36,936 bases of DNA from Opitutus sp. GAS368. GTDB lineage: Bacteria > Verrucomicrobiota > Verrucomicrobiia > Opitutales > UBA953. The first letter of the stretch is position 1, and the number at the start of each line of letters is the position of its first letter. The position numbers were made by a program, and so were the translations under genes. The notes beneath the pieces are model-generated. The model worked only from the letters and a program-made list of their open reading frames with translations. It was not told the origin of the DNA and did not search any database. Where the stretch lies: assembly GCA_945882655.1 (NCBI GenBank), contig CAMCWL010000005.1:1-36936 (forward strand). Direction: 5' to 3'. Below are positions 2,605 to 19,118 of this stretch, one piece after another.

Positions 2605-3732
2605 TCAGGGTGCCGGCGGCAGGCGCACGGCCTTTCGAATATAAGCCGGTACATCCACATCCTGCCCGTCGATGAAGGTCATGGGCGTGCCACCGAACAG
2701 ACCACGGCGCATCGATTCCTCCGTCGCGAATTCGAAGATTGGCTGGGCGGGGTCCTCGGCCTTGGCGCCCTTCTTAGGCTTGGCCGGCGCCTTCGGTGCG
2801 GGCAGCGAAGCGCCGAGCACCGAGACTTCGATCCGATTGCCGAGCGTGGGCTCGATGCGTGCACAGAGGACCGTGGAGGTTTCGCCACCGAAACGCGCAC
2901 GGATGGCGGCGACGGCCTCAAAGGCTTCCGTGGAGGTCATCGCCGAGCCGCCGGCGACGGTGACAAAGAGCGAGGCGACCTTGGCGACGGCGCCAGGCGC
3001 ATGCGCGAGCGGGCAATCGCAGGCCGCGCGGGCGGCCTTCATCGCGGCGCCATCGCCCTGACCGACGCCAAAAGCGAAAAGCGTAGGCGAACCGGGCGTA
3101 GAAAGGAGCGAACGTAACGCAGCCGGATCGACCGCGATGAGCGCACCCGGCGCGAAGGCCGAAGCGAGACCGCGGAGCGCACCGCCCACCCAGTTATCCG
3201 CCGCGGCGAACGATTCGGACAGAGGCGCGTCAGGCGAGACCTGCTGAAGCAGAAGATCGTTGTGCACCACGACGAGTCCATGGCACTTCTGCCCCAGCTT
3301 GACCGTGGCGTCATTAGCCTGGCGCATACGACGTTCGCCTTCATGCGAAAACGGCATCGTCGCGAAAGAGAGGACCGTCGCACCACACTCGGCCGCAAGG
3401 CCGGCGACCACAGACGCAGCCCCGCTGCCGGTACCGCCACCAAGGCCAGTGACGAGCACGACAACCGGGATGCCGGCGAACAGGCGACGGAGCGCGGCTT
3501 CTTCAGATTCTGCGGAAGCGAGGCCTAGCGCAGCTTCGCCACCGGTACCCATCCCACGCGTCTGCGCCCGGCCGAGCTGCAACGTGGTAGCCGTACCGGC
3601 AGGCAAGGAACGCGCATCGGTATCGAGTAACGCGACGGCGACTTCAGGCGGTAACTGCGCCGATAGGCGCGTGACCATCGAGCACCCTGCCCCACCGAGG
3701 CCAATCAAGAGGATGGAAGCGGGCGTGGACAT
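2605..3732 (-). CDS. ftsZ: Divergent cell division protein FtsZ
   Basis: The tubulin-like GTPase of the division ring, 375 residues. I start at the ATG at 3732, one base after the ftsA stop and directly before the GLGGAGCSMV nucleotide-binding loop; a longer reading frame exists but would run into ftsA. Conserved pieces are LDTDARSL, TRGMGTG, the GGGTGSG signature (98-104), PFSHEGERRMRQ, and a C-terminal DVPAYIRK peptide (360-367) resembling the FtsA/ZipA-binding tail. The T7 loop reads AVDPAAL: the positions of E. coli N207 and D212 are both alanine (A200, A205), while D209 is kept as D202. A linker rich in Ala, Lys and Pro (311-328) separates core and tail. Being last in the dcw cluster after ftsA supports FtsZ identity rather than TubZ or bacterial tubulin. 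Confidence 0.93.
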   Translation of the reverse strand: MSTPASILLIGLGGAGCSMVTRLSAQLPPEVAVALLDTDARSLPAGTATTLQLGRAQTRGMGTGGEAALGLASAESEEAALRRLFAGIPVVVLVTGLGGGTGSGAASVVAGLAAECGATVLSFATMPFSHEGERRMRQANDATVKLGQKCHGLVVVHNDLLLQQVSPDAPLSESFAAADNWVGGALRGLASAFAPGALIAVDPAALRSLLSTPGSPTLFAFGVGQGDGAAMKAARAACDCPLAHAPGAVAKVASLFVTVAGGSAMTSTEAFEAVAAIRARFGGETSTVLCARIEPTLGNRIEVSVLGASLPAPKAPAKPKKGAKAEDPAQPIFEFATEESMRRGLFGGTPMTFIDGQDVDVPAYIRKAVRLPPAP

Positions 3733-3733
3733 C

Positions 3734-4966
3734 TTAGAGACGGAAGAGCTCCTTGATCTGGGCAAGGAAGCCGCGCGGACGACGTACCGGGGGCGGTGCA
3801 TCGGTGATCGCAGCGGTCATGAGGCCCACCACGCCCGCATACTCGGGCTTGCGCAGGGATTCGTTCTCGAAGTTCGGGATACCCACGCGGGCGGAAAGAC
3901 CCATGACGAGCTGTACCGCCTCGGCCGCGTCAGCCAAGCTGGCGGAACCGCCGGTGAGGATGACACCGGAAGGAATCATGTTCTGGTCGAGCTTCACGGC
4001 ATGGCCGGGGAAAATTGCCTCGAGGCGACGCAGGACGTCCTTACGGACAAACTCGATGGTCTCCTGGTAGCGGAGCGATAGCACTTGGGTGATCGTGCCG
4101 CGGTTGAACTGCTGGTCGCCCACGCCCTTGTCGCCATCCTTCCAGATGGTCTGATTGACGTCGTTCTCGCGGTGCATCGCAGAACCGAAGCGTAGCTTCA
4201 GGTCCTCAGCCGTCTCGCGGCTGATACGCAGAGCCACACTGAGGTCATTGGTCAGGTGCTCACCGCCCACGGGGATTGAGCCCGCGCAGAGGATGTGCTC
4301 CTTGTAATAAAGGATCCAGTCCGTCGTACCGGCGCCGATATCGATGACCAGTACGCCCTGCTTGTCGGCGTCGCTCGCGGTCGCGCAGGCCGCGGCATGT
4401 GAGGCGAGGATGAAGTCGCGGACCTTAATGCTCATGCCGTTCACCATACCGACGCGCATGCGCATGTTACCTTCCTCCATCGTCACGCGCCAGAAATTCA
4501 CTTCAAGTCGCTTGCCCGCCATGCCCACCGGATTAGTCACCGGGCGATTATCCAGCATCGTCGGCTGGCGCATGTAGAGAATGGTCGCGCGGCCCTCCGG
4601 CGGCTCCAGGCGCTTGGCGGACTGGATGGCGTCGCTCACGTCTTTAGCGGTGATCTTACCGTCATGCGCGGGCACGGCGACGAAGCCTTTCACGCGTTCA
4701 CCTTCGGCCGCTGGACCAGACAGCGAAAGGTAGACCTGCTCAACGGCGCGGCCGGAACCACGCTCGATATCGTTGACGACCTCATGGACGCACTGCGTGA
4801 GTTTTTCGAGGTCGGTGACAGTGCCCTTCACGACGCCATCGGTGCGGCGTTCGCTGAAGCTGAGCATGCGGGCCTTGCCGTCGATAATCTGGCCGAGGAG
4901 GCTGGCGGTCTTATGTGTGCCGACATCGATGACGGCGATGAGGGAAGGAAGGGGCTTGGAAGTCAT
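3734..4966 (-). CDS. ftsA: Cell division protein FtsA
   Basis: An actin-like ATPase that tethers FtsZ to the membrane and recruits later divisome proteins; 410 residues, the usual length. The phosphate-1 loop is AVIDVGTHKTASLLG (about 11-25), phosphate-2 is VLVIDIGAGTTDW (about 205-217), and the adenosine motif is GVILTGGSASLADAAEA near the C-terminus. The last 13 residues, RGFLAQIKELFRL, form an amphipathic helix, the expected membrane-targeting sequence. The start overlaps the ftsQ stop in an ATGA junction, and one base separates its stop from the ftsZ ATG. No Shine-Dalgarno precedes it, so translation probably depends on coupling to ftsQ. Confidence 0.96.
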   Translation of the reverse strand: MTSKPLPSLIAVIDVGTHKTASLLGQIIDGKARMLSFSERRTDGVVKGTVTDLEKLTQCVHEVVNDIERGSGRAVEQVYLSLSGPAAEGERVKGFVAVPAHDGKITAKDVSDAIQSAKRLEPPEGRATILYMRQPTMLDNRPVTNPVGMAGKRLEVNFWRVTMEEGNMRMRVGMVNGMSIKVRDFILASHAAACATASDADKQGVLVIDIGAGTTDWILYYKEHILCAGSIPVGGEHLTNDLSVALRISRETAEDLKLRFGSAMHRENDVNQTIWKDGDKGVGDQQFNRGTITQVLSLRYQETIEFVRKDVLRRLEAIFPGHAVKLDQNMIPSGVILTGGSASLADAAEAVQLVMGLSARVGIPNFENESLRKPEYAGVVGLMTAAITDAPPPVRRPRGFLAQIKELFRL

Positions 4967-5940
4967 CGGGGAGTAAGGGGTACGAGGCGGGGTTCAGGAA
5001 TCGGCGAAGCACCGTTGGTGCGATTCTGGATCGACATCTTCAGCACGTAGGCCTGCGCGGTCGTGCCGGGTCGACGCAGCATCTCGTCGACGTTGATGCG
5101 CGAGAGCAATGCGAGCTCGTTACGCCAGTTGGCGGTAGAGAAGAGGATTTCGACCAGCGCGGGGCGATCCATCGGCTGCGTACCGGGGCGCACGGCGACG
5201 CGCAGATTCGAGCCAGGCGAATCCTCCTGCGCACCAAAGCAATCACGGAGCGAGACCGCGGACCATTGTTTGTAGAGATTCGGGTAGGTGGTGCGCACGG
5301 TGAGCAGGAACGGGGCGGCAATCTCAATGCCGTCGATGACCATCTTGTCATCGCTGCCAGTGGAACGGTAATCCGCAATCTCCGGGAGATTACGAATGGC
5401 CTGCTCAGGGTAGCCGGAGCCAGCGAAGGTCTGGCCATCGGAAGCCACGATACGCACCTGCATCGGCGTGAGCTTACCCGGCGACGCGATGACGACCTTG
5501 GCGACCGCGAGGCGTTCACGTAGAGCGATATCAAGCGTGCCGTCGCCCCGGCGACGGACGTCGGCGGTGACCACCTGGTTATCCGACTCAAGTTCGGCCT
5601 TAATCGAACGGACGTCGCGGGCAAACCCCTCCGGACCGTTGGCGATAGTCTTCTTCACGAAATCGACGGAAAGGAACCCGTCGGTTTTGTAACGGAGTGA
5701 GCCTGCGGTCGGCGAAGCGGTCACAGATTCGTCGACGGCCCACCAAAGCAGGCCCACCAGGACGACGAAGAAACCCACGGCGAGGAAGGTGGGGAGCTTG
5801 GAGCGGACGGCGCGCTTGCGGCCGATCTCGCCTTCGGGGACGCGGTTGACGTCCTGCGGTACGAGCGCACGCCAGTCGCGATCAGCCTGGCCCAGAAAGG
5901 CGTCACGGCGTTTGCGGAAGAGATTATCGAAGAGGCCCAT
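4963..5940 (-). CDS. ftsQ: Cell division protein FtsQ/DivIB-like
   Basis: A bitopic divisome protein of 325 residues, assigned mainly by position between ddl and ftsA plus architecture. It has a basic cytoplasmic N-terminus, one membrane span (about 49-68, FLAVGFFVVLVGLLWWAV) and a periplasmic domain beginning with a POTRA-like stretch (LRYKTDGFLSVDFVKKTI). The usual beta-domain follows with little recognisable identity. The C-terminus continues well past the POTRA region with LVEILFSTANWRNELALLSRI, similar in layout to the FtsQ beta domain. It starts 2 bases after the ddl stop and overlaps ftsA by 4. The fold assignment is inference; sequence identity to E. coli FtsQ looks low. Confidence 0.85.
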   Translation of the reverse strand: MGLFDNLFRKRRDAFLGQADRDWRALVPQDVNRVPEGEIGRKRAVRSKLPTFLAVGFFVVLVGLLWWAVDESVTASPTAGSLRYKTDGFLSVDFVKKTIANGPEGFARDVRSIKAELESDNQVVTADVRRRGDGTLDIALRERLAVAKVVIASPGKLTPMQVRIVASDGQTFAGSGYPEQAIRNLPEIADYRSTGSDDKMVIDGIEIAAPFLLTVRTTYPNLYKQWSAVSLRDCFGAQEDSPGSNLRVAVRPGTQPMDRPALVEILFSTANWRNELALLSRINVDEMLRRPGTTAQAYVLKMSIQNRTNGASPIPEPRLVPLTPR

Positions 5941-5942
5941 GT

Positions 5943-6866
5943 TTAGCGTTGGTCGGGTTGGGCGGCGCGCGCGAGGGCCGGAGCGGCCATACGACGGACG
6001 AGCAAGGGGAAGTCGAGGCCGACGCAGGAAGCGCTCTTAGGCATCAGGCTGGTTTCGGTCATGCCGGGCATCGTGTTGATCTCGAGGAAATAGAACTGGC
6101 CGTCGGGCTCAAGGAAGACATCCGCGCGGGCGAAGTCCCGGCAACCGCAGGCGGCGAAGAGCCGCGCGGCGGCGGCACCGATGGCGGCGGTCAGTTCCGG
6201 GCCCACGGCGGCGGGAAAGCGGTACTCGGAGGCACCTTTAGTGTATTTGGTCTTATAATCGTAGACGCCGGTGAGCGGGACGATTTCGACGATGCCCATG
6301 GGCTGACCGTCCAGGAGGCCGATGGACATTTCGCGGCCGCGTAGGCGGCGCTCGGCCATCCACTGGCCGGAAGCGGGGATCTCCGCCAAGGCCTTGGCCA
6401 CGGCGGCCTCCCCTTCCAACATGTAAAGGCCGACACTGCTGCCTTGGTCGGACGGCTTAATGACAATGTGTTCACCCAAGGCGGCAACGAGCGCGGCGGC
6501 TGTCGGCTTAGCAGCGCCCGCGAAGGCGACCTCTGGGATAGCCGGGACGCCGGCGGCACGCATCGCGTGCTTGGTAGCGACCTTGTCCATGCAGAGACGG
6601 TTGGCGGCGGACGAACAACCACCGAAGGCGATACCTCGAGCTTCCATCTCAGCCTGAGCGCGACCGTCCTCGCCCCAACCGCCGTGCAGGACAGGCAGGA
6701 CCACGTGCTTGGCGCCATCCAGCCACTCGGGCAAGGCATCAGCCTCGAGTGCAATGAGCCGGGAACCCGGCAGCACGGAAGCGACAGCCTGACCAGAACG
6801 CAGGGAGACTTCGCGTTCGGAGGAGAGGCCACCGCAGAGAACGATAATTTCGGGAGACAAAGTCAT
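5943..6866 (-). CDS. ddl: D-alanine--D-alanine ligase
   Basis: An ATP-grasp ligase that makes D-Ala-D-Ala for the UDP-MurNAc-pentapeptide; 307 residues. Motifs: GGLSSEREVSLRSG at the N-terminus, HGGWGEDGRAQAEME, IKPSDQGSSVGLY, YDYKTKYTKGASEY (omega loop) and FLEINTMPGMT (metal and ATP site). I chose the ATG at 6866, which overlaps the murC-murB stop as ATGA and has a GGAAGGA Shine-Dalgarno at good spacing. The longer reading from 6881 would add five residues. This is one of the few genes here with a clear Shine-Dalgarno sequence. Confidence 0.96.
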   Translation of the reverse strand: MTLSPEIIVLCGGLSSEREVSLRSGQAVASVLPGSRLIALEADALPEWLDGAKHVVLPVLHGGWGEDGRAQAEMEARGIAFGGCSSAANRLCMDKVATKHAMRAAGVPAIPEVAFAGAAKPTAAALVAALGEHIVIKPSDQGSSVGLYMLEGEAAVAKALAEIPASGQWMAERRLRGREMSIGLLDGQPMGIVEIVPLTGVYDYKTKYTKGASEYRFPAAVGPELTAAIGAAAARLFAACGCRDFARADVFLEPDGQFYFLEINTMPGMTETSLMPKSASCVGLDFPLLVRRMAAPALARAAQPDQR

Positions 6867-9139
6867 AGGAGGTCCTTCCATTCTCGTCCGAGGGCGACGA
6901 TCTCGGGCTGAAGTTCGACACCCTGGCGGGATTTCACTTCGGCGCGGACAGTGCGCATGAGCTCGATGAAATCCGCAGCCTTGGCGTCTCCCGCGTTGAC
7001 GAGGAAATTAGCGTGGGTGGGCGAGACGCAGACTGGTCCAACGGCTCGGCCTTTGAGTCCGCTGAGGTCGATGAGGCGTCCGGCCTTGTCCCCTTCGGGA
7101 TTCTTAAACACGCACCCGGCACTGGCCTCGCGGGGCTGAGAGGCACGGCGCTGTGCTGCGAGCTCGTCCATGCGTGCGCGGATGGCGGTAGGTTCGTCGC
7201 GACCGGCGGAGCGCAGCACGGCGGAGAGCACCACCGAGCCGTGCAGTTGCGGGCAGTCGCGATAAAGGGCATCAAAGCTATCGCGGCGCGCGGCGCGCAC
7301 CTGACCCTGCGGCGAAAGCCATTCAATCGACTCCACGACGTCGAAGATCCAGCCACCCATTGCGCCAGCGTTCATCCGCAAGGAGCCACCAATTGTGCCG
7401 GGAATACCTTCGAGGAACTCGAAGCCCTTCCATCCTTCACGTGCGGCGAAACCACAGAGTTCCTTGAGGCGGGTGCCACCGCCGACGCGGAAGCGGCCCT
7501 CGCCGAGATCAGTCACGGCACCCCAATGGGCCGCGTCGAGATGCAAGATGAGTCCGTCGTAGCCTTCGTCGGGCACGAGTAGATTGGAACCACGACCAAC
7601 CGCAAACCAGCGCAGGTCAAGCTCCGCAGCGGCGCGCAGGAGCGCCACGATGTCATCCACGTTCGCCGGTTCAGCGTACCAGCGGGCGGCGCCGCCGAGA
7701 CCGAGCGTCGTGCGGCGGGCGAGCGGCTCATTGGCACGCAGGGCACAATCCGCGGAGAGGCGGCCGGAGACGAGATCGGGCAGATCGAGCGAAAGAATAT
7801 CAGCGCCGCGGCGGCGGAGCACCTTGGCGCAGGCTTCGGCGTCGCGCTCGATGTCGCCCGCGCCCACGAACGCTACGACCGTGTCGGCGCCGGCGGAAAG
7901 TTCGTCCAAGATACGCGGCAAGGTCCGGCGATCCTCGACGAGGCGATGGGCAGAGCCATTGACGATGGCGTCGGAACCGCCACCTTCGACCGCCGCTTCG
8001 CCGGCGGAATAGACCGGCAGGACGAGGGCATGGTCGGCGACGGCGAGCGCATCGCGGAATTCGCGGACATACTGGCGCGTGCGCGTGTGACGGTGCGGCT
8101 GGAAGACGACGACGAGGCGGCCGGTGTGCGTCTCCCGCACCCATTTCAATAGCGCCGCAATCTCCGTCGGGTGATGCGCGTAGTCAGCGAGTACACGGAG
8201 TCCCGTGCGTTCGAAGAGCACATCCTGACGGCGGCGGATGCCGCGCCAGCGGGCGAGCGGCTCGGCCACGAGGCTACCGGTGATGAAGTGCGTGACCGCA
8301 AGGGCCAGCGAAGCGTTCGATCGGTTAAAGGTGCCGGCGACCGGTAGATTGAACTGTCCGGCGGGAAAACGCCCTTCGAGCGCGACGACCGAGGAGGAGT
8401 GACCACCTTGGACGAGACGGAAGGAATAGTCGCCGCCCTCGCCAACTCGGATGACCGGAACCTTGAGGCCTGCGGTGAGGCGTTCGAGGCGTTCATTACC
8501 AACCGGGATAATGACCGCGGTGCGGGTGCGTTCAAAGAGCGCACGGAAGACGCCCTCCAGCGCAGCTTCGTCGCGATAATAGTCAGGGTGATCCCAATCA
8601 AGGTTCACGGCGACGGTGACGTCAGGCGAGAACGCACCGATGGTGCCATCACTCTCATCGACCTCGGCCACGACCCAGGGCGAAGAAGCGGAAGCGCGCG
8701 CCGGCGGGAAGGCCGGATCGCGGAAGAGCCCGCCCAGTACATAACCGAAATCCGCTTCGGCGCTCGCGAGGGCGGCGACGAGCAGGCCGCAGGTGGTCGT
8801 CTTGCCGTGGCTACCGCAGATGGCGACGAAGCGACGTTCGGCGACGGCCTCGGCGAGGAGTTCACCGCGGCGGAGCGTACGCACCTCATGGCGTTCCGCG
8901 AGAGCGAGCGCAGCGTGGCCGGGTTTCACCGCACTGGAGCGGCCCACGACCGAAGGGTGACGGCCAGCGGCCCAAGGATCACGGAGCAACGGGATGTCGG
9001 CGTTAGCGAGCTGGAGCTCCATCGGACTACCCGTCGAATCATCCCAACCCGAGACGTCCCAGCCCTCCCCTTTCAGGTAGATAGCGAGCGGACCGACGCC
9101 CATGCCGCAGGCCCCGAGCATCCAGGCGGAGGCGCTCAT
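6863..9139 (-). CDS. murC-murB: MurC-MurB fusion protein
   Basis: A single 758-residue protein joining UDP-MurNAc--L-alanine ligase (about 1-445) and UDP-N-acetylenolpyruvoylglucosamine reductase (about 455-758). The MurC part has CGMGVGPLAIYL, the P-loop GSHGKTTT (109-116), AEVDESDG, NLDWDHPDYY and DYAHHPTEI. The MurB part has an FAD site VGRGSNLLVPDEGYDG and GIPGTIGGSLRMNAGAMGG (579-597), then AGCVFKNP (674-681) and QPEIVALG. It matches type II MurB layout. The catalytic Ser of the GSxFKNP motif is Cys676 here. MurB acts before MurC in the pathway, so the fusion links two consecutive steps. The frame is continuous, with no stop or slip at the junction. ATGA overlaps join it to murG and ddl. 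Confidence 0.96.
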   Translation of the reverse strand: MSASAWMLGACGMGVGPLAIYLKGEGWDVSGWDDSTGSPMELQLANADIPLLRDPWAAGRHPSVVGRSSAVKPGHAALALAERHEVRTLRRGELLAEAVAERRFVAICGSHGKTTTCGLLVAALASAEADFGYVLGGLFRDPAFPPARASASSPWVVAEVDESDGTIGAFSPDVTVAVNLDWDHPDYYRDEAALEGVFRALFERTRTAVIIPVGNERLERLTAGLKVPVIRVGEGGDYSFRLVQGGHSSSVVALEGRFPAGQFNLPVAGTFNRSNASLALAVTHFITGSLVAEPLARWRGIRRRQDVLFERTGLRVLADYAHHPTEIAALLKWVRETHTGRLVVVFQPHRHTRTRQYVREFRDALAVADHALVLPVYSAGEAAVEGGGSDAIVNGSAHRLVEDRRTLPRILDELSAGADTVVAFVGAGDIERDAEACAKVLRRRGADILSLDLPDLVSGRLSADCALRANEPLARRTTLGLGGAARWYAEPANVDDIVALLRAAAELDLRWFAVGRGSNLLVPDEGYDGLILHLDAAHWGAVTDLGEGRFRVGGGTRLKELCGFAAREGWKGFEFLEGIPGTIGGSLRMNAGAMGGWIFDVVESIEWLSPQGQVRAARRDSFDALYRDCPQLHGSVVLSAVLRSAGRDEPTAIRARMDELAAQRRASQPREASAGCVFKNPEGDKAGRLIDLSGLKGRAVGPVCVSPTHANFLVNAGDAKAADFIELMRTVRAEVKSRQGVELQPEIVALGREWKDLL

Positions 9140-10224
9140 GCGGCGGCGAGCCGGCGGCGGCCGGCGAGCGCGATGGTTTCATGGGCAAGTTCTTCCCAAC
9201 GATTACCGGCATCAGCTAAGGCGAGCGCGTCGCGCATCACCGCGAGCGCGGCGGTATCGGCGAGGCGGTCGAAGACGATGCGCAGAAGCCGCGGGAGTTC
9301 CGACTCCGGCAGTAGGATTGCCGCACCGGACAGTTCGCTCTGACGCGCATTAGCCGTCTGATGGTCGTCCGCCGAACGCGGATAAGGGACGAGTACCGCT
9401 GGCGTGCGACACGTGGCCAGCTCGGCGAGCGTACCCGCGCCAGCGCGGGTGACGGCGAGGTCGGCCGCGGAATAGGCCGTCGCCATCTGGTGGCAGAACG
9501 GGACGAACTTCACCAGCGAGTCGGGCGAGCGGACTTCGTCCTCGCGGCCACCCGGGCCCGTCAGGCAAAGCACATGAATGCCGCGAATGGCGAACTCCTC
9601 GAGATTGTCCTCCACCCAGCGGTTAAGGGAGTGGGCGCCTTGACTCCCACCGGTGACGAGCACCACGCGACCCGTCGGCGGCAAGCCGAGCGCCCGGCGG
9701 GCGGCGTCGCGCGCCTGCGGACGGATCTCGGCGCGGACAGGATAACCAGAATCATGCTGACGCTCCGCGGCGAGACCGGGAATACGTACCCCGGCGGGCA
9801 GGTGCACCGCATCGGCAAAGCGTGCGATCAGACGCACAGCCTTACCAGGCTTGCGATTGGCTTCATGGACCAGCACCGGGATTCCGCATAGGCGGCAGGC
9901 CAGTGAAGGACCGAGACTCATGAAGCCGCCGAAGCAGACAAGCGCGTCGGGGCGAAAACGACGGAGCAAGCGCCAAGAAGACCAGACGGCGCCGAGCAAT
10001 GCCGGGAAGAAGAGCAGCTTTGCACCGAGACCGGGTCCGAAGCCACGGCCCTTACCCGGGACGAAGTTTAGGCGCGGGTAGTTCGAGGTCATGCGCGCGT
10101 CGACGACCTTGCTGCTGACAATCAGGAGGCACTCGTGTCCATCCTCTGTGAGCCGCTGGGCGAGGGCGATACCCGGGGCGAGGTGGCCACCGGTCCCGCC
10201 GCAAGCGAGCAGCACGCGGCTCAT
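9136..10224 (-). CDS. murG: MurG N-acetylglucosaminyltransferase
   Basis: The GT28 enzyme that adds GlcNAc to lipid I to make lipid II at the inner membrane face; 362 residues. The N-terminal glycine-rich loop is GGTGGHLAPG (about 9-18), the second is GGSQGAHSLN, and the UDP-GlcNAc donor site is TRAGAGTLAEL. YPVRAEI and VPYPRSADDHQTANA are also typical. The start overlaps the ftsW stop as ATGA and is preceded by a near-perfect Shine-Dalgarno AAGGAGG, the best in the window. It overlaps the murC-murB start by 4 bases. Confidence 0.97.
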   Translation of the reverse strand: MSRVLLACGGTGGHLAPGIALAQRLTEDGHECLLIVSSKVVDARMTSNYPRLNFVPGKGRGFGPGLGAKLLFFPALLGAVWSSWRLLRRFRPDALVCFGGFMSLGPSLACRLCGIPVLVHEANRKPGKAVRLIARFADAVHLPAGVRIPGLAAERQHDSGYPVRAEIRPQARDAARRALGLPPTGRVVLVTGGSQGAHSLNRWVEDNLEEFAIRGIHVLCLTGPGGREDEVRSPDSLVKFVPFCHQMATAYSAADLAVTRAGAGTLAELATCRTPAVLVPYPRSADDHQTANARQSELSGAAILLPESELPRLLRIVFDRLADTAALAVMRDALALADAGNRWEELAHETIALAGRRRLAAA

Positions 10225-11435
10225 GCGCGCGCCTCCTTAGCCACGAAAGCCGGCTGAGCCGATTCGCGGATACAGTTCAGGACGAGACCAACCATACAAC
10301 CCATGATGACAAGATTGGTGCCGCCGTAGCTGATGAACGGGAGCGAGATACCCTTGGTCGGGAGCAAGCCGGTAACGACGCCCATATTAATGAGCGCCTG
10401 CATGACGAGGAAGAGCGTCGCGCCGAGGCAGATATTGAAGCGATACAGATCCGACGAGCACCGCATCGCACGATAGGCGCACCAGAAGATGCCGAAGTAG
10501 ACCAGCGCGACGAGCGAGGTCGCGACGAGCCCGTATTCCTCGCCGATGACGGAGAATACGAAGTCCGTGTGGGCTTCGGGCAAGTAGGCGCGACCTTGGA
10601 TACCATTCGCGGCGCCCTTACCCGTCAGACCGCCGACGCCAAAAGCGACCATGCCCTCGAAGAGCTGGTAGGCCTCGTCGCCGCGTTTCTCCCACGGCTC
10701 GAGGAACGAGGTGAAGCGGCGCATGCGGTTCGGCCAGTTGAGGATGAGGGCGGTGAAGCCACCCAGTCCGATCAGGAAACTCGGGATCACGTAGGCCCAG
10801 CGTACGCCCGAGACGAGCATCATCGTGCCGCCCACCGCGCAGCAGAGGAGGATCGTACCGAGGTCCGGCCCGAAAGCGATGAAACCAGCGATGACCAGGA
10901 GGATGGCGACGGGCTTCGCGAAGCCTTCGCGGCAATCAATCCATCCGCGGCGCGTGAAGAGGAAAGGCTTACTTGAACTCAGCTGATAGATCGTGAACTT
11001 ATTCGGTAAGGTATGCCGCTGCATGCGCGCCAAGAAATCGGAAAGCACGAGCACCATGGCGAGCTTACCGAGGTCCGAGGCCTGCAGGCGGAAGAAGCCG
11101 AAATCAACCCAGCGCCAGGAGCCGTTGACCGAGACGCCGATACCGGGGATACGCGCGAGGAACATCGCGAGGCAGGCGCCGCCCAGAATCCACCAGCGCC
11201 ACTCGCGGACTTTATCGAGATTGAGACGGAAGAACGCGTACCCGGCGACGAAGGCAATCGGCACGTAAGCCAGCTGGCGGTAAAACGCCCCGGTGCGGTT
11301 GCTCGACGAAAGCGAGATCCCTGCGCTGTACTGCACGACTAGACCGAACACCGCGAGGGACATCGCGAGCAGCAGGATGCCCAAGGAGTACCCACCCAGG
11401 GCTCCTGGACCTTCCTGCTTCTCCTTGATGACCAT
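10221..11435 (-). CDS. ftsW: FtsW septal peptidoglycan polymerase (SEDS)
   Basis: A polytopic SEDS-family glycosyltransferase that polymerises lipid II with FtsI at the septum; 404 residues with about ten hydrophobic segments. NGSWRWVDFGFFRLQASDLGKLAMVL matches the conserved NGxxRW...QPSExxK region, FGPDLGT carries the catalytic Asp (D191), and LPFISYGGTNLVIMGCMVGLVLN is the family C-terminal motif. The stretch 138-172 between helices looks longer than in the E. coli protein. Position next to murG favours FtsW over RodA. The gene starts 20 bases after the LysM gene stop and overlaps murG by 4 bases. Confidence 0.95.
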   Translation of the reverse strand: MVIKEKQEGPGALGGYSLGILLLAMSLAVFGLVVQYSAGISLSSSNRTGAFYRQLAYVPIAFVAGYAFFRLNLDKVREWRWWILGGACLAMFLARIPGIGVSVNGSWRWVDFGFFRLQASDLGKLAMVLVLSDFLARMQRHTLPNKFTIYQLSSSKPFLFTRRGWIDCREGFAKPVAILLVIAGFIAFGPDLGTILLCCAVGGTMMLVSGVRWAYVIPSFLIGLGGFTALILNWPNRMRRFTSFLEPWEKRGDEAYQLFEGMVAFGVGGLTGKGAANGIQGRAYLPEAHTDFVFSVIGEEYGLVATSLVALVYFGIFWCAYRAMRCSSDLYRFNICLGATLFLVMQALINMGVVTGLLPTKGISLPFISYGGTNLVIMGCMVGLVLNCIRESAQPAFVAKEARA

Positions 11436-11455
11436 GACGCGGCGCGGGTGTCAGA

Positions 11456-12004
11456 TTACTTCTTGTCCGCGGGAGCCGGTGCGGTGGCGGCGGCCTTACC
11501 GATGGGGATGAGTTTGAGCGGAGTGAAGCTCGGAGCAGGCGCAGCCGGCGCGGCGGCCTTGGGCGCGGCCTTCGGGGCGGCCTTAGGCGCAGCCTTCACA
11601 GGAGCTTTGGAGGCGGCGGGGATGGTCAGCACCTGGCCGGTCTTGAGGTCAGCGTTAAGGCTGAGACCGTTAGCCTTCGCGAGATCGGCACGAGTGACCT
11701 TCTCGCTGGCGGCAACGGTCATAAGGGTCTCGCCTTTGACTACCGTGCGCTTGCCACCGTTACCGACGGGGCCCACGGGCGTGAGCTTGGTCGGGACGGG
11801 AGTCGGGATGCGGTTGGAGATCGCGGTGGCGGAGCCGGGCGCGACCGCCGGGCTGCCGGCGGGACGAGCACCGCCGGAGTAAGCGGCGAGGTCGCCGGGC
11901 TGCTCGAAGCCGCTGGTGCTTCGGCAGCCGTTGACGCCGACAAGGACGGCGATGACGCAGAGGTGCAGGAGCACGACGGCAGTGACGGTGATGAGGGGAC
12001 GCAT
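11456..12004 (-). CDS. LysM-domain envelope protein in the dcw cluster
   Basis: A 182-residue exported protein not normally part of dcw clusters. Residues 1-26 are a hydrophobic export signal ending in VGVNGC, which could be a lipobox with the lipid-modified Cys at 27. A low-complexity Gly/Pro/Ala linker follows, then one LysM motif (about 86-130: TVVKGETLMTVAASEKVTRADLAKANGL...LKTGQVLTIP), which generally binds GlcNAc-containing glycan. The C-terminus contains tandem KAAP repeats (about 135-150) and a Pro/Ala-rich tail. It lies between murD (42-base gap) and ftsW (20-base gap). A role in binding septal peptidoglycan is inference. The mRNA upstream of the start is almost entirely C and A, with no Shine-Dalgarno. 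Confidence 0.85.
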   Translation of the reverse strand: MRPLITVTAVVLLHLCVIAVLVGVNGCRSTSGFEQPGDLAAYSGGARPAGSPAVAPGSATAISNRIPTPVPTKLTPVGPVGNGGKRTVVKGETLMTVAASEKVTRADLAKANGLSLNADLKTGQVLTIPAASKAPVKAAPKAAPKAAPKAAAPAAPAPSFTPLKLIPIGKAAATAPAPADKK

Positions 12005-12010
12005 GGTGGT

Positions 12011-12030
12011 GGGTCTGGTGGGTGGGTGGG
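12011..12030 (+). other. G-quadruplex motif in the murD-LysM spacer
   Basis: Four runs of three G (12011-13, 12020-22, 12024-26, 12028-30) separated by 6, 1 and 1 bases fit the canonical G3N1-7 rule on the plus strand. This is the template strand for the dcw operon, so the mRNA itself is C-rich. The motif sits only seven bases from the LysM start codon, in the 42-base spacer after murD. Formation in vivo is not shown. Confidence 0.6.
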
Positions 12031-12046
12031 TGGTTTGGTTGGAAAA

Positions 12047-13321
12047 TTAGACGCGGTTCGCGAGGGCGCTCGCGGCGCGTTCAAAGACGAGGCCGCGCTC
12101 GGCGTAGCCGCGGAACTGATCGAAACTGGAGAAGCCAGGACTGAGCAGGATGGCCGAAGGTCCGTGCGCATCCTTAGCGGCCGCGACGACGGCGTCCTGC
12201 AGGGACGGGTAGCAACGGGCGACCTTGCCGAGCTCGTCAAAGTGACGCTTCAATTCTTCGGCCGTCTCGCCGATGAGATATGCGGTATCGATCAGCGGTG
12301 CGATGTTGCGGACGAAGCGAGCGAGGTCGCCACCCTTCCACTTCCCTCCGCCAATCCAGCGGACGGGGATACTGAACTCCGAGAGTGCGGCCTGAACCGC
12401 GTGGAAGTTAGTGCCTTTCGAGTCGTTCCAGAATTCGACGCCTTGGCGCTCCGCGACCTTGCGGAGGCGATGGGGCGGAACGCGGAAAAGCCGGGCGGCC
12501 TCCTCAAGGTGGCGCATCGGGATACCGCGGGCCTGCCAGTACTTGCAGAGGATGGCCCAGTTCTCACGCTGCGGCCAAGAATCAAAGACCGAACCCGCCG
12601 GCACGGTATCAGCGACGTCTGCGCGTGTGGCGACGATGGCCTCGGCGGGTAGTTCGATGCCGAATTCACGGGCGGACGAGACAACCGATTCGCCGACGAC
12701 CAGGATTCCGCCGGGCATCATGCGTTCGATGAGGCGGAACTTCGCGCGGAAATAACTCTCGAGGTCGCCGTGCCGGTCAAGGTGATCTTCGTCGAAGTTC
12801 GTCCAAAGCACCGCCTCGGGCGTGAAGTGGCGAAGGTCCTCGGCCTGGAAGGAGCTGACTTCAACGATCGCGACGAACGAACCGTTGGAGACCGTGCGGT
12901 GCAGCGACGTCAGTGGCAGGCCCACGTTACCGCAGGCGATGGCATCGAGCCCGGAACGTTTGAAGGCGAACGAGAGGAACTCCGTGATGGTCGTCTTACC
13001 GTTGGTGCCGGTGATGGCGATGGCGGGGCCGGTCCAGAGCAACGCACCGAAATCAAGCTCACTCAGGCAGTGCAGGCCGGCCCGGCGCGCGGCGAGGATC
13101 CACGGATGCGACTGCGGGAAGCCGGGGCTATAAACCAGGAGGTCGTGGCGGGCGGCTTCCTCGGGACCGAACTGCCGGTTCTCCCCACGTTCGTCATAGA
13201 TGACCGAGGCGAAGCCAGCCGAAGCGAGGGATTCCGCGACCGAACGACCGCTCACGCCCTCGCCGAAGATGGCGGCGGGCCGAGTGAGGCGGCGGCGGAG
13301 AGATTCGGGGAACTCGCTCAT
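12047..13321 (-). CDS. murD: UDP-MurNAc-L-Ala--D-Glu ligase MurD
   Basis: Adds D-glutamate to UDP-MurNAc-L-Ala; 424 residues from the ATG at 13321. The longer open frame to 13561 lies inside mraY and is rejected. Motifs: FGEGVSGRSVAESL at the N-terminal Rossmann domain, the P-loop ITGTNGKTTITEF, VEVSSFQAEDL, WTNFDEDHLDRHGD, NDSKGTNFHAV and LSPGFSSFDQFRGYAERG, all standard for MurD. It joins mraY through an ATGA overlap. The order mraY-murD is the usual dcw order; the next usual gene, ftsW, is separated from it here by the LysM gene. Confidence 0.96.
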   Translation of the reverse strand: MSEFPESLRRRLTRPAAIFGEGVSGRSVAESLASAGFASVIYDERGENRQFGPEEAARHDLLVYSPGFPQSHPWILAARRAGLHCLSELDFGALLWTGPAIAITGTNGKTTITEFLSFAFKRSGLDAIACGNVGLPLTSLHRTVSNGSFVAIVEVSSFQAEDLRHFTPEAVLWTNFDEDHLDRHGDLESYFRAKFRLIERMMPGGILVVGESVVSSAREFGIELPAEAIVATRADVADTVPAGSVFDSWPQRENWAILCKYWQARGIPMRHLEEAARLFRVPPHRLRKVAERQGVEFWNDSKGTNFHAVQAALSEFSIPVRWIGGGKWKGGDLARFVRNIAPLIDTAYLIGETAEELKRHFDELGKVARCYPSLQDAVVAAAKDAHGPSAILLSPGFSSFDQFRGYAERGLVFERAASALANRV

Positions 13322-14430
13322 CGGAGCTTGAGGGAGAGCAGGCCGAGGAGGCCGCACAGCAGGGAGAGAATCCAGAAGCGCGCCACGACCTTGGTCGCGG
13401 GCCAGCCCTTCTTCTGGAAGTGGTGGTGGATGGGCGTCATCAGGAACAGGCGTTGGCCGCCCGTCCGTTTGAAGTAGGCCACCTGCAGGATGACGGAGAT
13501 TGCCTCGACGACGAACACGCCACCGGCAATCGCGAGGAGGAAGGGCTGATGCATCAGGCACGCCACCGCGCCGAGGCCGCCGCCGAGACCGAGCGCGCCG
13601 ACGTCGCCCATATAAATCTCAGCCGGGGCCGCGTTGTGCCAAAGAAAGACGAGGCTGCCGCCGACGAGGGCCGAGCAGAAGACCGCGAGCTCGCCCGCGC
13701 CCGGCACGTAACTGATACGGAGGTACGTCGCGAACTCATGGTGACCAGCGAGGTAGGCGACCGCGCCGAAAATCATCGTGGTAATGATGACGCAGCCGAT
13801 AGCCAAGCCGTCGAGGCCGTCAGTGAGATTGACCGCATTGGAACTGCCTACGCAGACGAGCACGAAGAACCCGGCGGCGACGCCGAGGCAGACCAGGAAG
13901 GGCAAGCCAAGGGATTTCGCAGACCAAAGCGGACCGGTGAGAATCGGTAGCCAGATTTCGCAGAGGCTTTCGCGATAGGCCGGGTCAAGGAGTACAATGC
14001 CGAAACCGATGAGCGCGACGAGCCCCTGCCCCGCCAACTTCATGCGCGCGGAAATACCGTCGGAACTACCATGACGGACCTTCAGCCAGTCGTCATACAG
14101 TCCCACGAGGCCCATGCCGATGAGGCACCAGAGCGCGGCGATCACGAGGACGTTGAGGCGCGCCCAGAGGAGCACCGAAGGGATCATCGCCACGGCGATG
14201 ATCAGGCCACCCATGGTCGGCACCTTGCCGCCCTCCTTGGCAAGCTCACCCATCAGCTTGGCCGAACGCTCGGGCTGGCGCAGACGCGCGAGCAGGGCGA
14301 TAAGCCGGCCGGAGAAAAGCATCCCCAGCAGCAACGCCGTCACGCCTGCCAAAATCGCGCGGACGGAGATATACTCGAAGAGACGGAAAGGCCCCCAGGT
14401 GTGGACGAGTTCGCTGAGACGGTAAAGCAT
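13318..14430 (-). CDS. mraY: MraY phospho-MurNAc-pentapeptide transferase
   Basis: An integral membrane enzyme that transfers phospho-MurNAc-pentapeptide to undecaprenyl phosphate, giving lipid I; 370 residues, about ten membrane segments. The aspartate motifs are clear: DDWLKVRHGSSDGIS, then NAVNLTDGLDGLAIG, and MGDVGALGLGGGLG. The histidine loop MTPIHHHFQKKGWPATKVV near the C-terminus is characteristic. The start is one base after the murF stop with no Shine-Dalgarno; the end overlaps murD by 4 bases. Confidence 0.97.
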   Translation of the reverse strand: MLYRLSELVHTWGPFRLFEYISVRAILAGVTALLLGMLFSGRLIALLARLRQPERSAKLMGELAKEGGKVPTMGGLIIAVAMIPSVLLWARLNVLVIAALWCLIGMGLVGLYDDWLKVRHGSSDGISARMKLAGQGLVALIGFGIVLLDPAYRESLCEIWLPILTGPLWSAKSLGLPFLVCLGVAAGFFVLVCVGSSNAVNLTDGLDGLAIGCVIITTMIFGAVAYLAGHHEFATYLRISYVPGAGELAVFCSALVGGSLVFLWHNAAPAEIYMGDVGALGLGGGLGAVACLMHQPFLLAIAGGVFVVEAISVILQVAYFKRTGGQRLFLMTPIHHHFQKKGWPATKVVARFWILSLLCGLLGLLSLKLR

Positions 14431-14431
14431 C

Positions 14432-15805
14432 CTAGTGGAAAGAAAGCGCGGAGCGGAGGGAATCAGGTAGGCAACGCTCGAGAGCGAAGGAACGGCTACC
14501 CTTTAGAAAGACGAAGCCACGGTGCGCGGCGACGCGGGCGGCGGCATCCTCAACGGAAGCCGCGACAGAAAGTTCCACCCCAGGGAGCGCAACTCCCTGC
14601 AGCAACGCAGCCGAATCGCCGCCGAAGACGACCACATGGTCGCCGGAGCGGAGAGGTAGCTGCGCGCCGCAGTCGCGGTGGAGTTGCGCAGAGGTCGGAC
14701 CGAGCTCGGCCATACCGCCGAGCAGGAAAAGACGAGGTGCCGCGGAGCCGCGGCTGACACGGTCGAAGGCGCGGGCCGAATCGAGGAGCGACGCAGGACT
14801 GGAATTATAACAATCGACGTAGTAGGTGCGTTCGCCTTCGACGTGCACGCTACCGCGACCGGCGGGTGGCATCCATTGCGCCGTGACCGCGGCGAGTTCG
14901 CCTGACGGACGGCCGAGCTCGAGGGCGGCGACAAGCGCCAGCGCCGTATTACGGGCGAGGCCGTCGGAAATCGGAGCGAGCGGGAAGACCTCGTCGTCGA
15001 GCACAAGCGAGCGCTGGCCGCGGGCGTCGGTGAGGAAAGAGGCCCGAACAAGACGGGCCGGCGCGACGGCCGGGGCGGCTTCGCCCTCGAACTGAACGGC
15101 GATGCAACGGGACGCATGAGCCGCGAACTCCGGCCAATCGAGCAACGCCGCTGGGATGATCGCGCGTCCGCCAGGGGCGAGTTCGGCGACGAGCGTAGCC
15201 TTCTCGCGAGCGATGCCGGCGAGCGAGCCGACCCCTTCGAGATGCACCGCTGCGACGTTGGTGACGATGGCGAGGTCGGGGCGAATGACGGCGGCGGAGA
15301 GTCCGAGCTCGCCGGGCACACTCATGCCCGCCTCGATGACGGCAAAACGATGGAGCCCCGGTTCGACGCGGAGGAGCATCAGCGGGACACCGATAAGGTT
15401 GTTAAGATTGGCTTCCGTAACGAAGGCCTCCCTGCCGAGGAGCGCGGCGAGCATCTCCTTCGTCGAGGTCTTACCCACGCTACCCGTCACGCCGATGACG
15501 CGACCCGGGAAGTCCGTGCGCCAGCGGGCGGCGAGGCGACGGAGTGCGGCGAGCGAATCGTCGACGACGAGCTGCGGCAGATCATCCGCCACCGGACGCT
15601 CGACCAAGGCACAGGCGGCACCCTGCGAGCGGGCGGCACCGAGGAAGTCATGGCCATCACGGCGTTCAGTGCGTACGGCCACGAAGACTTCGCCCGCACG
15701 GAGGGCACGGGTGTCCGTGCCGAAACCCGTGACGGCGGCGCGGGGAGTGGCGGTCCAGCGGCCTCCGGCCCAGGCGGCAAGATCGGCTGAGGAGAAAGTC
15801 GGCAT
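14432..15805 (-). CDS. murF: UDP-MurNAc-tripeptide--D-Ala-D-Ala ligase MurF
   Basis: Adds the D-Ala-D-Ala dipeptide made by Ddl to the UDP-MurNAc-tripeptide; 457 residues. The P-loop is GVTGSVGKTSTKEM, followed by EANLNNLIGVPLMLL, EAGMSVPGELG and NVAAVHLEGVGS, with YVDCYNSSPASLLDSARAF in the third domain. The start is either ATG at 15805, sharing one base with the murE stop (TGATG), or GTG at 15808 directly before it. I prefer the ATG. Confidence 0.96.
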   Translation of the reverse strand: MPTFSSADLAAWAGGRWTATPRAAVTGFGTDTRALRAGEVFVAVRTERRDGHDFLGAARSQGAACALVERPVADDLPQLVVDDSLAALRRLAARWRTDFPGRVIGVTGSVGKTSTKEMLAALLGREAFVTEANLNNLIGVPLMLLRVEPGLHRFAVIEAGMSVPGELGLSAAVIRPDLAIVTNVAAVHLEGVGSLAGIAREKATLVAELAPGGRAIIPAALLDWPEFAAHASRCIAVQFEGEAAPAVAPARLVRASFLTDARGQRSLVLDDEVFPLAPISDGLARNTALALVAALELGRPSGELAAVTAQWMPPAGRGSVHVEGERTYYVDCYNSSPASLLDSARAFDRVSRGSAAPRLFLLGGMAELGPTSAQLHRDCGAQLPLRSGDHVVVFGGDSAALLQGVALPGVELSVAASVEDAAARVAAHRGFVFLKGSRSFALERCLPDSLRSALSFH

Positions 15806-17325
15806 CACGGCTGCGCGCCCCTCCGCAGCTCAAGGATTTCTCGGACGACTTGACGGTCGTCGAAAGGCACCACCGTGTCGGCGAATTCCTGGGTTGTCTC
15901 GTGACCCTTACCAGCGATGACGACGCAGTCACCGGCTTTCGCGGCGGCGAGGGCGCGGCCGATGGCGTCGCGTCGGCCGGTCACGAATTCCACGGTCGGC
16001 AACGCACCGAGGCCTTCCCGCATATCGGCGAAGATCCGGTCGAGGCTTTCCTTACGCGGATTATCGGCGGTGGCCCAGGCGAGGTGGGCGAGATCGGCGA
16101 CGGCCTTGGTCATCGCGGGACGCTTGCCGCGGTCGCGGTCACCGCCGCAGCCGTACACGCAGAGGACCCGCCCCGGGGTGATGTCGCGGAGCATGCGCAA
16201 GGCATTGCGCAGGGCGTCATCGGTGTGGGCGTAATCGATGAAGATCGGGAAGGCCTGACCAGCCTCGACGCGTTCCATGCGACCTGGAACACCGGGAAAG
16301 GAAGTGAGCGCCGGCGCGAGAGCCAGTGGATCGCGGCCGAGGGCAGCGGCCATCGCTAGGGCGCAGAGGACGTTCGAGACGTTGTAATCTCCCGGCAGTA
16401 TCGACTTGAAGACCGCGGAGCGTCCTTCGAAACGGACGGTGAAGACTGCGCCGCCGGTATCGAGGGCGAGATCGGTCGCGCGGAGTTCCGCGTCGGCCGC
16501 GAGACCGAAGGTAATCACCTTGCCCCGACGGCGACAGGCCTCGGCGAGCACGCGCCCAGCTGGATCGTCGATATTAATGACGCAGACGTCGGGCACCGAG
16601 CCGTTACGTCCGTCAAAGAGAGCCGTCTTGGCGTCGAGGTACGACACCAAGTCGCCGTGATAGTCGACGTGATCGCGGGTTAAGTTGGTGAAGGCTGCGA
16701 CCTGGAAGTGGAAGCCATGCACGCGGTCCTGATGGAGCGCATGGGAACTCACCTCGAGGCAGGCACCGACGCAGCCGGCGTCGACCATTTGGCGGAAGAA
16801 GCCGGAGAGGTCGGCCGATTCCGGCGTCGTCTTATAAGAGGGAATCGAACGTCGCCCGAGGTGATAGCGCACCGTACCCACCAAGCCCCACTGTGAACCA
16901 TCGGACTGCAACAGGTGACGGAGGAGCGTCGAGATTGTCGTCTTACCGTTGGTGCCCGTCACGCCGACCAGCTGCAGGGCGGCTTCCGGGTGGCCGAAGA
17001 AACGGCGGGCAAGCTCGGCAAGGGCGCGCCGCGGATCCGCGACTTGGGCGGCGGCGACGGCGGGTAGGCCAGCGACAGGTTCGCCCGAGATGATGGCGGC
17101 GGCGCCGCGGGCGATGGCATCATCGAGGAACGCGTGACCATTAGAGCGCAGGCCAGGTAGCGCGAAGAAGAGCGAGCCGGGGATGATGCGGCGGCTATCG
17201 GTGACGAGGGAGGAGATGCGGACGGAGCCATCGCCGGCGCGGCCGAGGACGGGGAGGCCTTGCAGCAGCGAATTGAAAGTGGGGCGCTCCATGGCGGCGG
17301 GCATCATCGCGAGAGGAGGCGTCAT
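15805..17325 (-). CDS. murE: UDP-MurNAc-L-Ala-D-Glu--meso-DAP ligase MurE
   Basis: Adds the third stem-peptide residue; 506 residues from the ATG at 17325, which overlaps the ftsI stop as ATGA. A longer frame to 17394 is rejected because it runs into ftsI. Motifs: VTDSRRIIPGSLFFALPG, the P-loop GVTGTNGKTTISTLL, FTNLTRDHVDYHGD, DYAHTDDALRNAL and TADNPRKES. The DNPR sequence is the signature of enzymes that accept meso-diaminopimelate rather than lysine, so the cell wall is predicted to be DAP type. A KGHET motif near the C-terminus is also conserved. Confidence 0.97.
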   Translation of the reverse strand: MTPPLAMMPAAMERPTFNSLLQGLPVLGRAGDGSVRISSLVTDSRRIIPGSLFFALPGLRSNGHAFLDDAIARGAAAIISGEPVAGLPAVAAAQVADPRRALAELARRFFGHPEAALQLVGVTGTNGKTTISTLLRHLLQSDGSQWGLVGTVRYHLGRRSIPSYKTTPESADLSGFFRQMVDAGCVGACLEVSSHALHQDRVHGFHFQVAAFTNLTRDHVDYHGDLVSYLDAKTALFDGRNGSVPDVCVINIDDPAGRVLAEACRRRGKVITFGLAADAELRATDLALDTGGAVFTVRFEGRSAVFKSILPGDYNVSNVLCALAMAAALGRDPLALAPALTSFPGVPGRMERVEAGQAFPIFIDYAHTDDALRNALRMLRDITPGRVLCVYGCGGDRDRGKRPAMTKAVADLAHLAWATADNPRKESLDRIFADMREGLGALPTVEFVTGRRDAIGRALAAAKAGDCVVIAGKGHETTQEFADTVVPFDDRQVVREILELRRGAQP

Positions 17326-19118
17326 CGGCCGAGGTCGGCGACGTGGGCACGCGGCACGGTGGAGACCGGAGGAATGTCGAGCCAGCGAATGCACTTCTCC
17401 GCGACGTCGCGGAAAATGGGAGCGGAAACCTTGCCGCCGTAGCCGACGCCCTCCCCTTGCGGCTCATCGATGATTACCGTGATCGCGAGCTTCGGGTCGT
17501 TGACCGGGAAGAAGCCCGCGAAGGAAGCGACGTGGTGTGCGTTGGAATAACGGCCGTTGACGATCTTCTGCGTCGTGCCGGTCTTACCCGCGACCTCGTA
17601 GCCCGGGATATCGGCGATCGGCGCCGTGCCGCCCTTACCGCAGACTGCCCGCAAGAGCGTAGCCATCTGCGCAGCCGTGGCGGCGCTGACGGCCCGGCCG
17701 CGCGAGCGCGGTCCGTAGCTAAGGATGGTCGCCTTCGTCTTCGGGTCCTCGACGCGGAGAACGAGCTGCGGCTGCATGAGTAGGCCTTCCGCTGCGACGA
17801 CCGACATCGCGAAGTGCATCTGCATGGCAGTGACGCTGACCGAGTGGCCCATCGGTACGCGCGAGATTGTCAGCCCGTCCCATTCCTTCGGCGAGATGAG
17901 TAGGCCCGGGATTTCAGCACCGGTGATCAGGCCCGTCCTGGCACCGAAGCCGAAAGACTTAATGAGCGCGAAGAACTTATCTTCGCCGAGGCGTTCCGCG
18001 TACTGCATCCCGACCTGGACCGTGCCGCGGTTGGAGGATTCGCGGACGATCTGCCGGATGTCGGCGGAGCCCATGGCGTGCGAGTCGGCCGGCATGGAGA
18101 CCATGCGGCCGCGATACGGGACGGTCATGGCACCACAGTCGAAGACCGAGTTCGGCGTGATGAGGCGTTCCTCGAGCGCACCGGAGACCGAGACAATTTT
18201 GAAGACGGAGCCGGGCTCGTAGACGTCGGACACGGCGCGGTTACGCTGACTATCCATCGGCGCGGCCTTCGGGTCGAAGAAACGGTTGAGGTCGTAGGTC
18301 GGCCAGTTGGCGAGGCCGAGGATGCGGCCCGTGCGCGGCTCGCTCACAATGATGATTCCGCCTTTCGGATTGTAGCGGGCGGCCGCGGCGGCGAGAGCGT
18401 CCTCGCAGGTCTTCTGGATGAGGCTATTGATCGTCAGCACGATGGTGCTGCCGTCGACCGGCGCGACTTCGCGGAGGCGATTACTGGTGATCTCGCGGCG
18501 GCGTCCATCGCGTTCAGATTCAATCCAACCCTTTTGGCCGAGGAGGAGCGGGTTCATCACGCTCTCAATGCCGGAAGCGGGGATACCCTCCTTATTCACG
18601 AAGCCGAGTACATGCGCGGCGAGCTGACCCTTGGGATAGTTGCGCCGGTACTTCAGTTCGGCACGGAGCGCCTTGATGCCCAGCGCCTTGATCCGCTTCA
18701 TCGTGGCCTCGTTTACCTCATGGGCGAGAACGGCCCAGCGGATTGTCTTTTCTTCGCCGGCCTCGTTCAGGCGCGTGGTCGTCTGGAAAGCCTCGCGGAC
18801 CTTGGAGAGCGGCAGGCCAAGGATGGTCGCAACTTCAAGGGCGCGGTCCGGCTCGCCCTTGACGAGCGAGTCCGGGTCCACGCCGATATCCCAAACGTCA
18901 TCGGACACCGCCAGAAGGTTTTCCTGCGAGTCACGGATCTCTCCGCGGCGGCATGGGATCTCCTGCAGCACGCGGCGAGCCTGCAGGGCTTCCGCTCGTA
19001 GACGAGGGGCGTCGACCCAATGCAACCACACCAGCCGTGTGATCACGGCCAGGAAGCAGAGGGAAACGGCCCAAGCCAGGAAACGGTAGCGCGTTCGCCT
19101 GGCGTGGGGGAGGCTCAT
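17322..19118 (-). CDS. ftsI: FtsI/PBP3-like septal transpeptidase
   Basis: A class B penicillin-binding protein that cross-links septal peptidoglycan and partners with FtsW; 598 residues from the ATG at 19118, an ATGA overlap with ftsL. It has one N-terminal membrane anchor (about 13-34), a dimerisation domain beginning RRGEIRDSQENLLA, and a transpeptidase domain with active-site Ser in SVFK (304-307), SSN (361-363) and KTGTT (512-516). There is no PASTA domain. The C-terminus is short after VGYGGKVSAPIFRDVAEK. All catalytic residues are present. Confidence 0.95.
   Translation of the reverse strand: MSLPHARRTRYRFLAWAVSLCFLAVITRLVWLHWVDAPRLRAEALQARRVLQEIPCRRGEIRDSQENLLAVSDDVWDIGVDPDSLVKGEPDRALEVATILGLPLSKVREAFQTTTRLNEAGEEKTIRWAVLAHEVNEATMKRIKALGIKALRAELKYRRNYPKGQLAAHVLGFVNKEGIPASGIESVMNPLLLGQKGWIESERDGRRREITSNRLREVAPVDGSTIVLTINSLIQKTCEDALAAAAARYNPKGGIIIVSEPRTGRILGLANWPTYDLNRFFDPKAAPMDSQRNRAVSDVYEPGSVFKIVSVSGALEERLITPNSVFDCGAMTVPYRGRMVSMPADSHAMGSADIRQIVRESSNRGTVQVGMQYAERLGEDKFFALIKSFGFGARTGLITGAEIPGLLISPKEWDGLTISRVPMGHSVSVTAMQMHFAMSVVAAEGLLMQPQLVLRVEDPKTKATILSYGPRSRGRAVSAATAAQMATLLRAVCGKGGTAPIADIPGYEVAGKTGTTQKIVNGRYSNAHHVASFAGFFPVNDPKLAITVIIDEPQGEGVGYGGKVSAPIFRDVAEKCIRWLDIPPVSTVPRAHVADLGR

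Follow-up and report, generated by a model that had tools for sequence, protein, structure and literature searches.

Filament structures of S. aureus FtsZ have shown that Sa D210 (E. coli D209) swings and places the catalytic water, and that Sa D213 (E. coli D212) provides the environment of this water and is linked to R143 (E. coli R142) (PMC8936486). In the same protein, K+ is held by N208 (E. coli N207) together with Q48 (E. coli Q47), and each of the substitutions N208L, D210N and D213N abolishes assembly (PMC8936486, from which residue conservation outside the phylum studied here was also taken). E. coli FtsZ D212A retains about 7% of the GTPase activity (PMC8142252), D212G does not complement unless suppressors are present (PMC5405962), and D212A FtsZ plus FtsA gives rise to extra septa that are able to close (PMC4383033). 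The FtsZ of Verrucomicrobiota has been described as divergent (PMC1845146) and, for Methylacidiphilum and Prosthecobacter, as evolving fast (PMC2474590); V. spinosum undergoes binary fission, and its ftsZ is essential (PMC12283558), and reviews of the superphylum treat gene loss and altered function with these residues unnamed (PMC5147048). The fast evolution of FtsZ in this phylum is thus already published in general terms. The residue-level account given here is apparently new: we found no report in the literature consulted of an order-wide loss of D212 or of an either-or pattern at 209 and 212, though two directly relevant older works were outside our reach and an earlier notice is possible.

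The window, by which we mean the whole analysed stretch of 36,936 nucleotides (Opitutus sp. GAS368, contig CAMCWL010000005.1), carries ftsZ in the order shown in Table 1. The encoded protein passes the cut-offs of PF00091 (Tubulin; 97.4 bits vs 33) and PF12327 (FtsZ_C; 32.5 bits vs 27), and it scores 184 bits with the NCBI ftsZ equivalog TIGR00065, under a cut-off of 295.2 that is a naming threshold and is reached by only 101 of the 284 genomes sampled in Opitutales. An AlphaFold monomer showed the full FtsZ fold with a disordered linker (mean pLDDT 83.6); the best Foldseek PDB matches listed for it are all FtsZ, headed by S. aureus FtsZ 7ohk (E 2.7e-33, TM 0.89 by target), as are the best PDB sequence matches listed. 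The choice of start codon is uncertain, and the open frame extends upstream to 3801. In agreement with the preliminary description, this is the only FtsZ of the cluster and lies in the normal dcw position, with ftsA adjoining upstream and the rest of the cluster in place; the frame in the ftsQ position matched none of the Pfam or NCBIfam profiles. A conserved linker motif, FxFxxxExRGxFEKTxxNxxxGxDLDVPTYLRRGIKI, leads into the FtsA-binding peptide in many Opitutales FtsZs and occupies 2620-2730 (- strand) in the window. We regard the gene as a true ftsZ ortholog whose product has a reduced catalytic loop, one instance of an erosion of the FtsZ active site that runs through the phylum.

Table 1. 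Features of the ftsZ locus and its surroundings, in window coordinates.
Feature	Position	Strand	Basis
ftsZ, 375 aa (MSTPASILLIGLGGAG...)	2605..3732	-	ORF; Pfam; TIGR00065; predicted fold
C-terminal FtsA-binding peptide DVDVPAYIRKAVRL, intact	2620..2661	-	sequence
T7 (synergy) loop GALIAVDPAALRSLL, residues 196-210	3103..3147	-	ungapped alignment to E. coli GLMNVDFADVRTVM
A205 codon = E. coli D212, lost	3118..3120	-	alignment
P203 codon = E. coli F210, lost	3124..3126	-	alignment
D202 codon = E. coli D209, kept; invariant in genus	3127..3129	-	alignment
A200 codon = E. coli N207, lost	3133..3135	-	alignment
SHEGERRM, E138 and R142 equivalents kept	3325..3348	-	alignment
Tubulin signature GLGGGTGSG, intact	3421..3447	-	matches GGGTG[ST]G
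T2/H2 motif DTDARS, D45 kept, Q47 to R	3607..3624	-	alignment
T1 loop/H1 IGLGGAGCSM, N24 equivalent to S	3676..3705	-	alignment
ftsA, directly upstream of ftsZ	3734..4966	-	TIGR01174 241 bits, cut-off 175.85
ORF in ftsQ position	4963..5940	-	ORF list
Remaining dcw cluster: ddl, murC-murB fusion, murG, ftsW, murD, mraY, murF, murE, ftsI-like PBP	5943..19148	-	
murC-murB fusion	6863-9139	-	same fusion described for V. spinosum

Alignment to E. coli FtsZ (a reference checked, T7 loop included, against the E. coli/Klebsiella FtsZ entries of the PDB) reduces the T7 triad N207/D209/D212 of the window protein to D209 only, E. coli numbering being used throughout, and M. tuberculosis FtsZ, taken from the PDB matches as a second reference, gave the identical T7 register. 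The preliminary description had reported a loop left with D209 and lacking the N207 and D212 equivalents, which both references confirm; beyond these losses, the conserved Phe of the loop (F210) is replaced by Pro. A misalignment masking an acid at 212 was rejected, as the register is ungapped against both references and holds no Asp or Glu at 210-212. Neither alignment places an Asp or Glu of this protein at 212, which the preliminary description had named as a ground for refutation. The FtsA-binding C-terminal peptide is intact, as had been claimed. The GTP-binding half, described in the same terms, is so only in part: the tubulin signature, D45, E138 and R142 are retained, but N24, the guanine-contact Asn of helix H1, has become Ser and Q47 Arg.

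Equivalent losses are found throughout the genus. In all 40 distinct sequences, drawn from independent assemblies, N207, F210 and D212 are gone: position 212 is Ala in 38, Ser in one and Val in one, 207 is always Ala, Pro or Ser (40/40), and 210 is always Pro (40/40). Over the same sequences D45, R142 and D209 are invariant (40/40), N24 is Ser or Ala, and Q47 is mostly Arg. The occurrence of the losses in 40 distinct sequences rules out a sequencing slip, which the continuous single frame had already been taken to argue against. Comparison of 16 ftsZ sequences of the genus gave a median dN/dS of 0.17 (range 0.04-0.35 over 63 usable pairs), so that the gene is under purifying selection and is maintained.

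The loss of D212 extends far beyond the genus. In representatives of almost all Opitutales families with a detectable FtsZ, D212 is gone, with Thr in most and Ser, Ala, His or Gly in the others, and N207 and D209 are usually kept. The largest family (f14) retains N24, N207, D209 and F210 in 40 of 40 sequences and has lost D212 in every one (Thr 33, Ala 5, Ser 1, Gly 1). Exceptional are one family (f9, sequence L010, loop N-V-E-F-N-D), where D212 is present and Glu stands at 209, and a few outlying members with Glu or Asp at 212 in poorly alignable loops. Opitutales form a single clade on the FtsZ tree (SH-aLRT 100). In a scan of 307 positions, D212 was the only one that is a single residue in at least 85% of the FtsZs having both acids and yet survives in at most 20% of the order; since the comparison set was itself selected on D209 and D212, what is informative here is that this behaviour is shared by no other conserved position. 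Opitutales-specific changes occur elsewhere in the protein, W188, Q170, F286 and G312 among them. D212 was lost early in Opitutales, mostly to Thr and much before the origin of the genus, and N207 and F210 followed later, within the family of the window. A loss peculiar to the source genome was thereby rejected. The loss singled out in the preliminary description is real, but it is not special to that genome, as D212 is missing nearly order-wide and most of the phylum's sampled families have an incomplete triad.

Across the phylum, the full N207-D209-D212 triad is kept in only 12 of the 77 sampled families. Acids are present at both 209 and 212 in 20 families, only at 209 in 29, only at 212 in 27, and at neither in one. 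The minimum number of changes on the tree is at least 13-17 for position 212, 14 for 209 and 19 for 207, approximate counts, since they come from a quickly built gene tree in which many branches are weak. Outside Opitutales many lineages show the reverse arrangement, with N207 and D209 lost and D212 kept, often with an extra Asp at 211 (f30, f36, f48, f51, f61, f63). Too few supported pairs were available for an independent-pairs comparison of 209 with 212, so Pagel's test was used; it revealed that the presence of an acid at 209 and the presence of one at 212 are not independent (LR 20.2, p 4.5e-4; 127 FtsZs, divergent families added). The dependence persisted without Opitutales (p 0.014) and was weaker when only Asp was counted and Glu was not (p 0.067), and the control pairs 212/N24 and 209/N24 showed none. 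In 119 simulations under independence, an LR as high as the observed one never arose. FtsZs with neither acid numbered 5, where the simulations gave a mean of 12; the count was as low in 40 of the 119 simulations and so is not extreme alone. Some of the FtsZs that diverge most within the phylum (f4, f26, f35, f50, f62) are among those with neither. As one acid goes but rarely both, this pattern suggests that either acid is dispensable and that one may be enough in this phylum. For the pair N207/Q47, a joint loss as a K+ site is suggestive only (p 0.056; 2.2 agreeing vs 0.6 opposing pairs, not significant).

FtsZ is further eroded, or goes undetected, elsewhere in the order and the phylum. Eleven small Opitutales genomes (G042 and G106 of f7; G061 and G079 of f25; G065, G105, G116 and G125 of f27; G070 of f28; G080 of f26; G108 of f11), of 0.8-1.3 Mb and 90-98% complete, have a good MraY and no FtsZ/tubulin match, and the FtsA model found in them only MreB-like or weaker partial matches; FtsZ and FtsA have apparently been lost there and peptidoglycan synthesis kept. 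One genome on a single contig (G110, f17; 2.3 Mb, 95% complete) gave no FtsZ, FtsA or MraY match, and for a relative (G072) the MraY search gave nothing, the FtsZ search nothing convincing and the FtsA model only weak partial hits; among the other members of their genus, FtsZ ranges from recognisable to barely detectable. In family f4, three FtsZ-like proteins (L048, L204, L207) carry a damaged tubulin signature (GGGFSGG, GGGFASG, AGGFAGG), and the FtsZ-like genes of two genomes (G039, G066) adjoin a good ftsA. Four FtsZs of family f35 (L209-L212), from genomes of 2.3-2.5 Mb, are extremely divergent (TIGR00065 E 1e-6 to 1e-18), with an unalignable T7 loop.

Taken together, the window gene probably encodes the one genuine FtsZ with which an uncultured freshwater Opitutales bacterium divides, and this FtsZ would operate with a stripped-down active site (D209, R142 and D45) and slow GTP hydrolysis and turnover. 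The preliminary description regarded D212 as the catalytic Asp; loss of D212 alone does not mean that catalysis is lost, because the D209 kept here is the swinging catalytic Asp in S. aureus. Speaking against this reading, such a set of residues could not work in a canonical FtsZ, since N208L, D210N and D213N each block assembly in S. aureus and D212G fails in E. coli unless suppressors are present. Monomers of the window protein would retain GTP binding and head-to-tail polymerisation, and the single T7 acid, with R142 of the neighbouring subunit, may still position the water for slow hydrolysis. We infer slow hydrolysis and turnover because the invariant D209, R142 and D45 are what a minimal hydrolysing site needs, and the little GTP turnover put forward in the preliminary description remains the most likely reading. 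Filaments that hydrolyse slowly would turn over slowly, and the Z-ring may serve chiefly as a scaffold, tethered by FtsA, on which the septal wall is made, and may treadmill less. The K+ site would seem to have gone with N207 and Q47, and the Arg at 47 might hypothetically take its place.

A different possibility, less probable than slow hydrolysis but worth serious consideration, is that this FtsZ binds GTP and forms filaments and barely hydrolyses, its turnover being left to FtsA or to unknown disassembly proteins. The loss of N207, F210 and D212 in the genus, with the K+-site partner Q47 mostly Arg, and the small residual activity of E. coli D212A are consistent with it. The FtsZ loops described here resemble the T7 loop of beta-tubulin, which is non-catalytic and carries Lys where FtsZ has D212. 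Had catalysis been abandoned, the invariance of D209, R142 and D45 in all 40 genus sequences would be hard to explain, though structural roles could also keep these residues. It is rather unlikely that another residue, either a shifted acid or a Thr/Ser site in the wider order, replaces D212 and restores near-normal hydrolysis. In its favour, an additional acid frequently stands at 211 (GLDD, GFDD) in other lineages without D209, and Opitutales have changes of their own such as W188, Q170, F286 and G312; but the genus sequences have no Asp or Glu at 210-212, and the Opitutales-specific changes are confined to one clade, so that they cannot be tied statistically to D212.

Decay of ftsZ in a lineage that FtsZ is leaving, with division carried out by other machinery, is very improbable for the window gene: several small-genome families of the order do lack detectable FtsZ and FtsA with MraY present, and FtsZ is highly eroded in f4, f17 and f26, but the dN/dS values of 0.04-0.35, the open frame, the kept C-terminal peptide and the intact neighbours of ftsZ all speak against it. 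Assistance by a second FtsZ contributing the catalytic Asp, which the preliminary description had raised, can be given hardly any weight. The source genome (1.84 Mb) has a single tubulin/FtsZ match at E up to 10, and its completeness of 86% leaves room for a missed copy. Among genus genomes at least 90% complete, FtsZ is matched in 20 of 22, as a rule once; second matches are few and either weak (E > 0.3) or from fragmented bins, and well-assembled members hold intact single copies. The search for a second, canonical FtsZ thus yielded none in the 86%-complete source genome, and no intact second copy in well-assembled members of the genus. One genome of another family (G168, 4% contamination) does hold a second, canonical FtsZ (L050, on G168:C107; NVDYAD, 400 bits), which is probably a contaminant.

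More tentatively, slow hydrolysis by a reduced site may be a habit of the whole phylum, which would repeatedly dismantle the catalytic loop while still dividing with FtsZ: either T7 acid would suffice, hydrolysis would be slow, fast treadmilling would be dispensable, and some Opitutales would end in loss of FtsZ with peptidoglycan synthesis kept. Arguments over whether division requires FtsZ GTPase activity and treadmilling have drawn chiefly on point mutants. Opitutales, with hundreds of genomes and cultured Opitutaceae among them, appear to divide with an FtsZ devoid of D212, and sister lineages with one devoid of the other T7 acid; such natural, viable catalytic variants offer direct test material for the purpose of hydrolysis. 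They may also represent an intermediate state toward the FtsZ-less division of Planctomycetes and Chlamydiae.

Compared with canonical FtsZ (E. coli, S. aureus, M. tuberculosis), the window protein is alike in fold, tubulin signature, E138, R142, D45 and D209, its position after ftsA and its C-terminal peptide, and it differs by N207A, F210P, D212A, N24S and Q47R and by its TIGR00065 score of 184 bits vs 295.2. The E. coli mutants D212A and D212G have lost the same position, and D212A filaments, with about 7% GTPase, assemble at division sites; the loss in the window, however, is natural, order-wide and combined with those of N207 and F210, whereas E. coli D212G needs suppressors to divide. 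The longitudinal interface is presumably shared with alpha/beta-tubulin, of which the alpha subunit has an acid at the D212 position and the beta subunit none, but the window cell has a single FtsZ and no heterodimer. The FtsZ of V. spinosum and Prosthecobacter is also divergent, its gene lies in a dcw cluster that includes a murC-murB fusion, and it is essential by TraDIS in V. spinosum (PMC12283558). Family f51, which we infer to be Prosthecobacter-like given its extra tubulin-like matches, has D212 but neither N207 nor D209, a loop reduced the opposite way from that of the window FtsZ.
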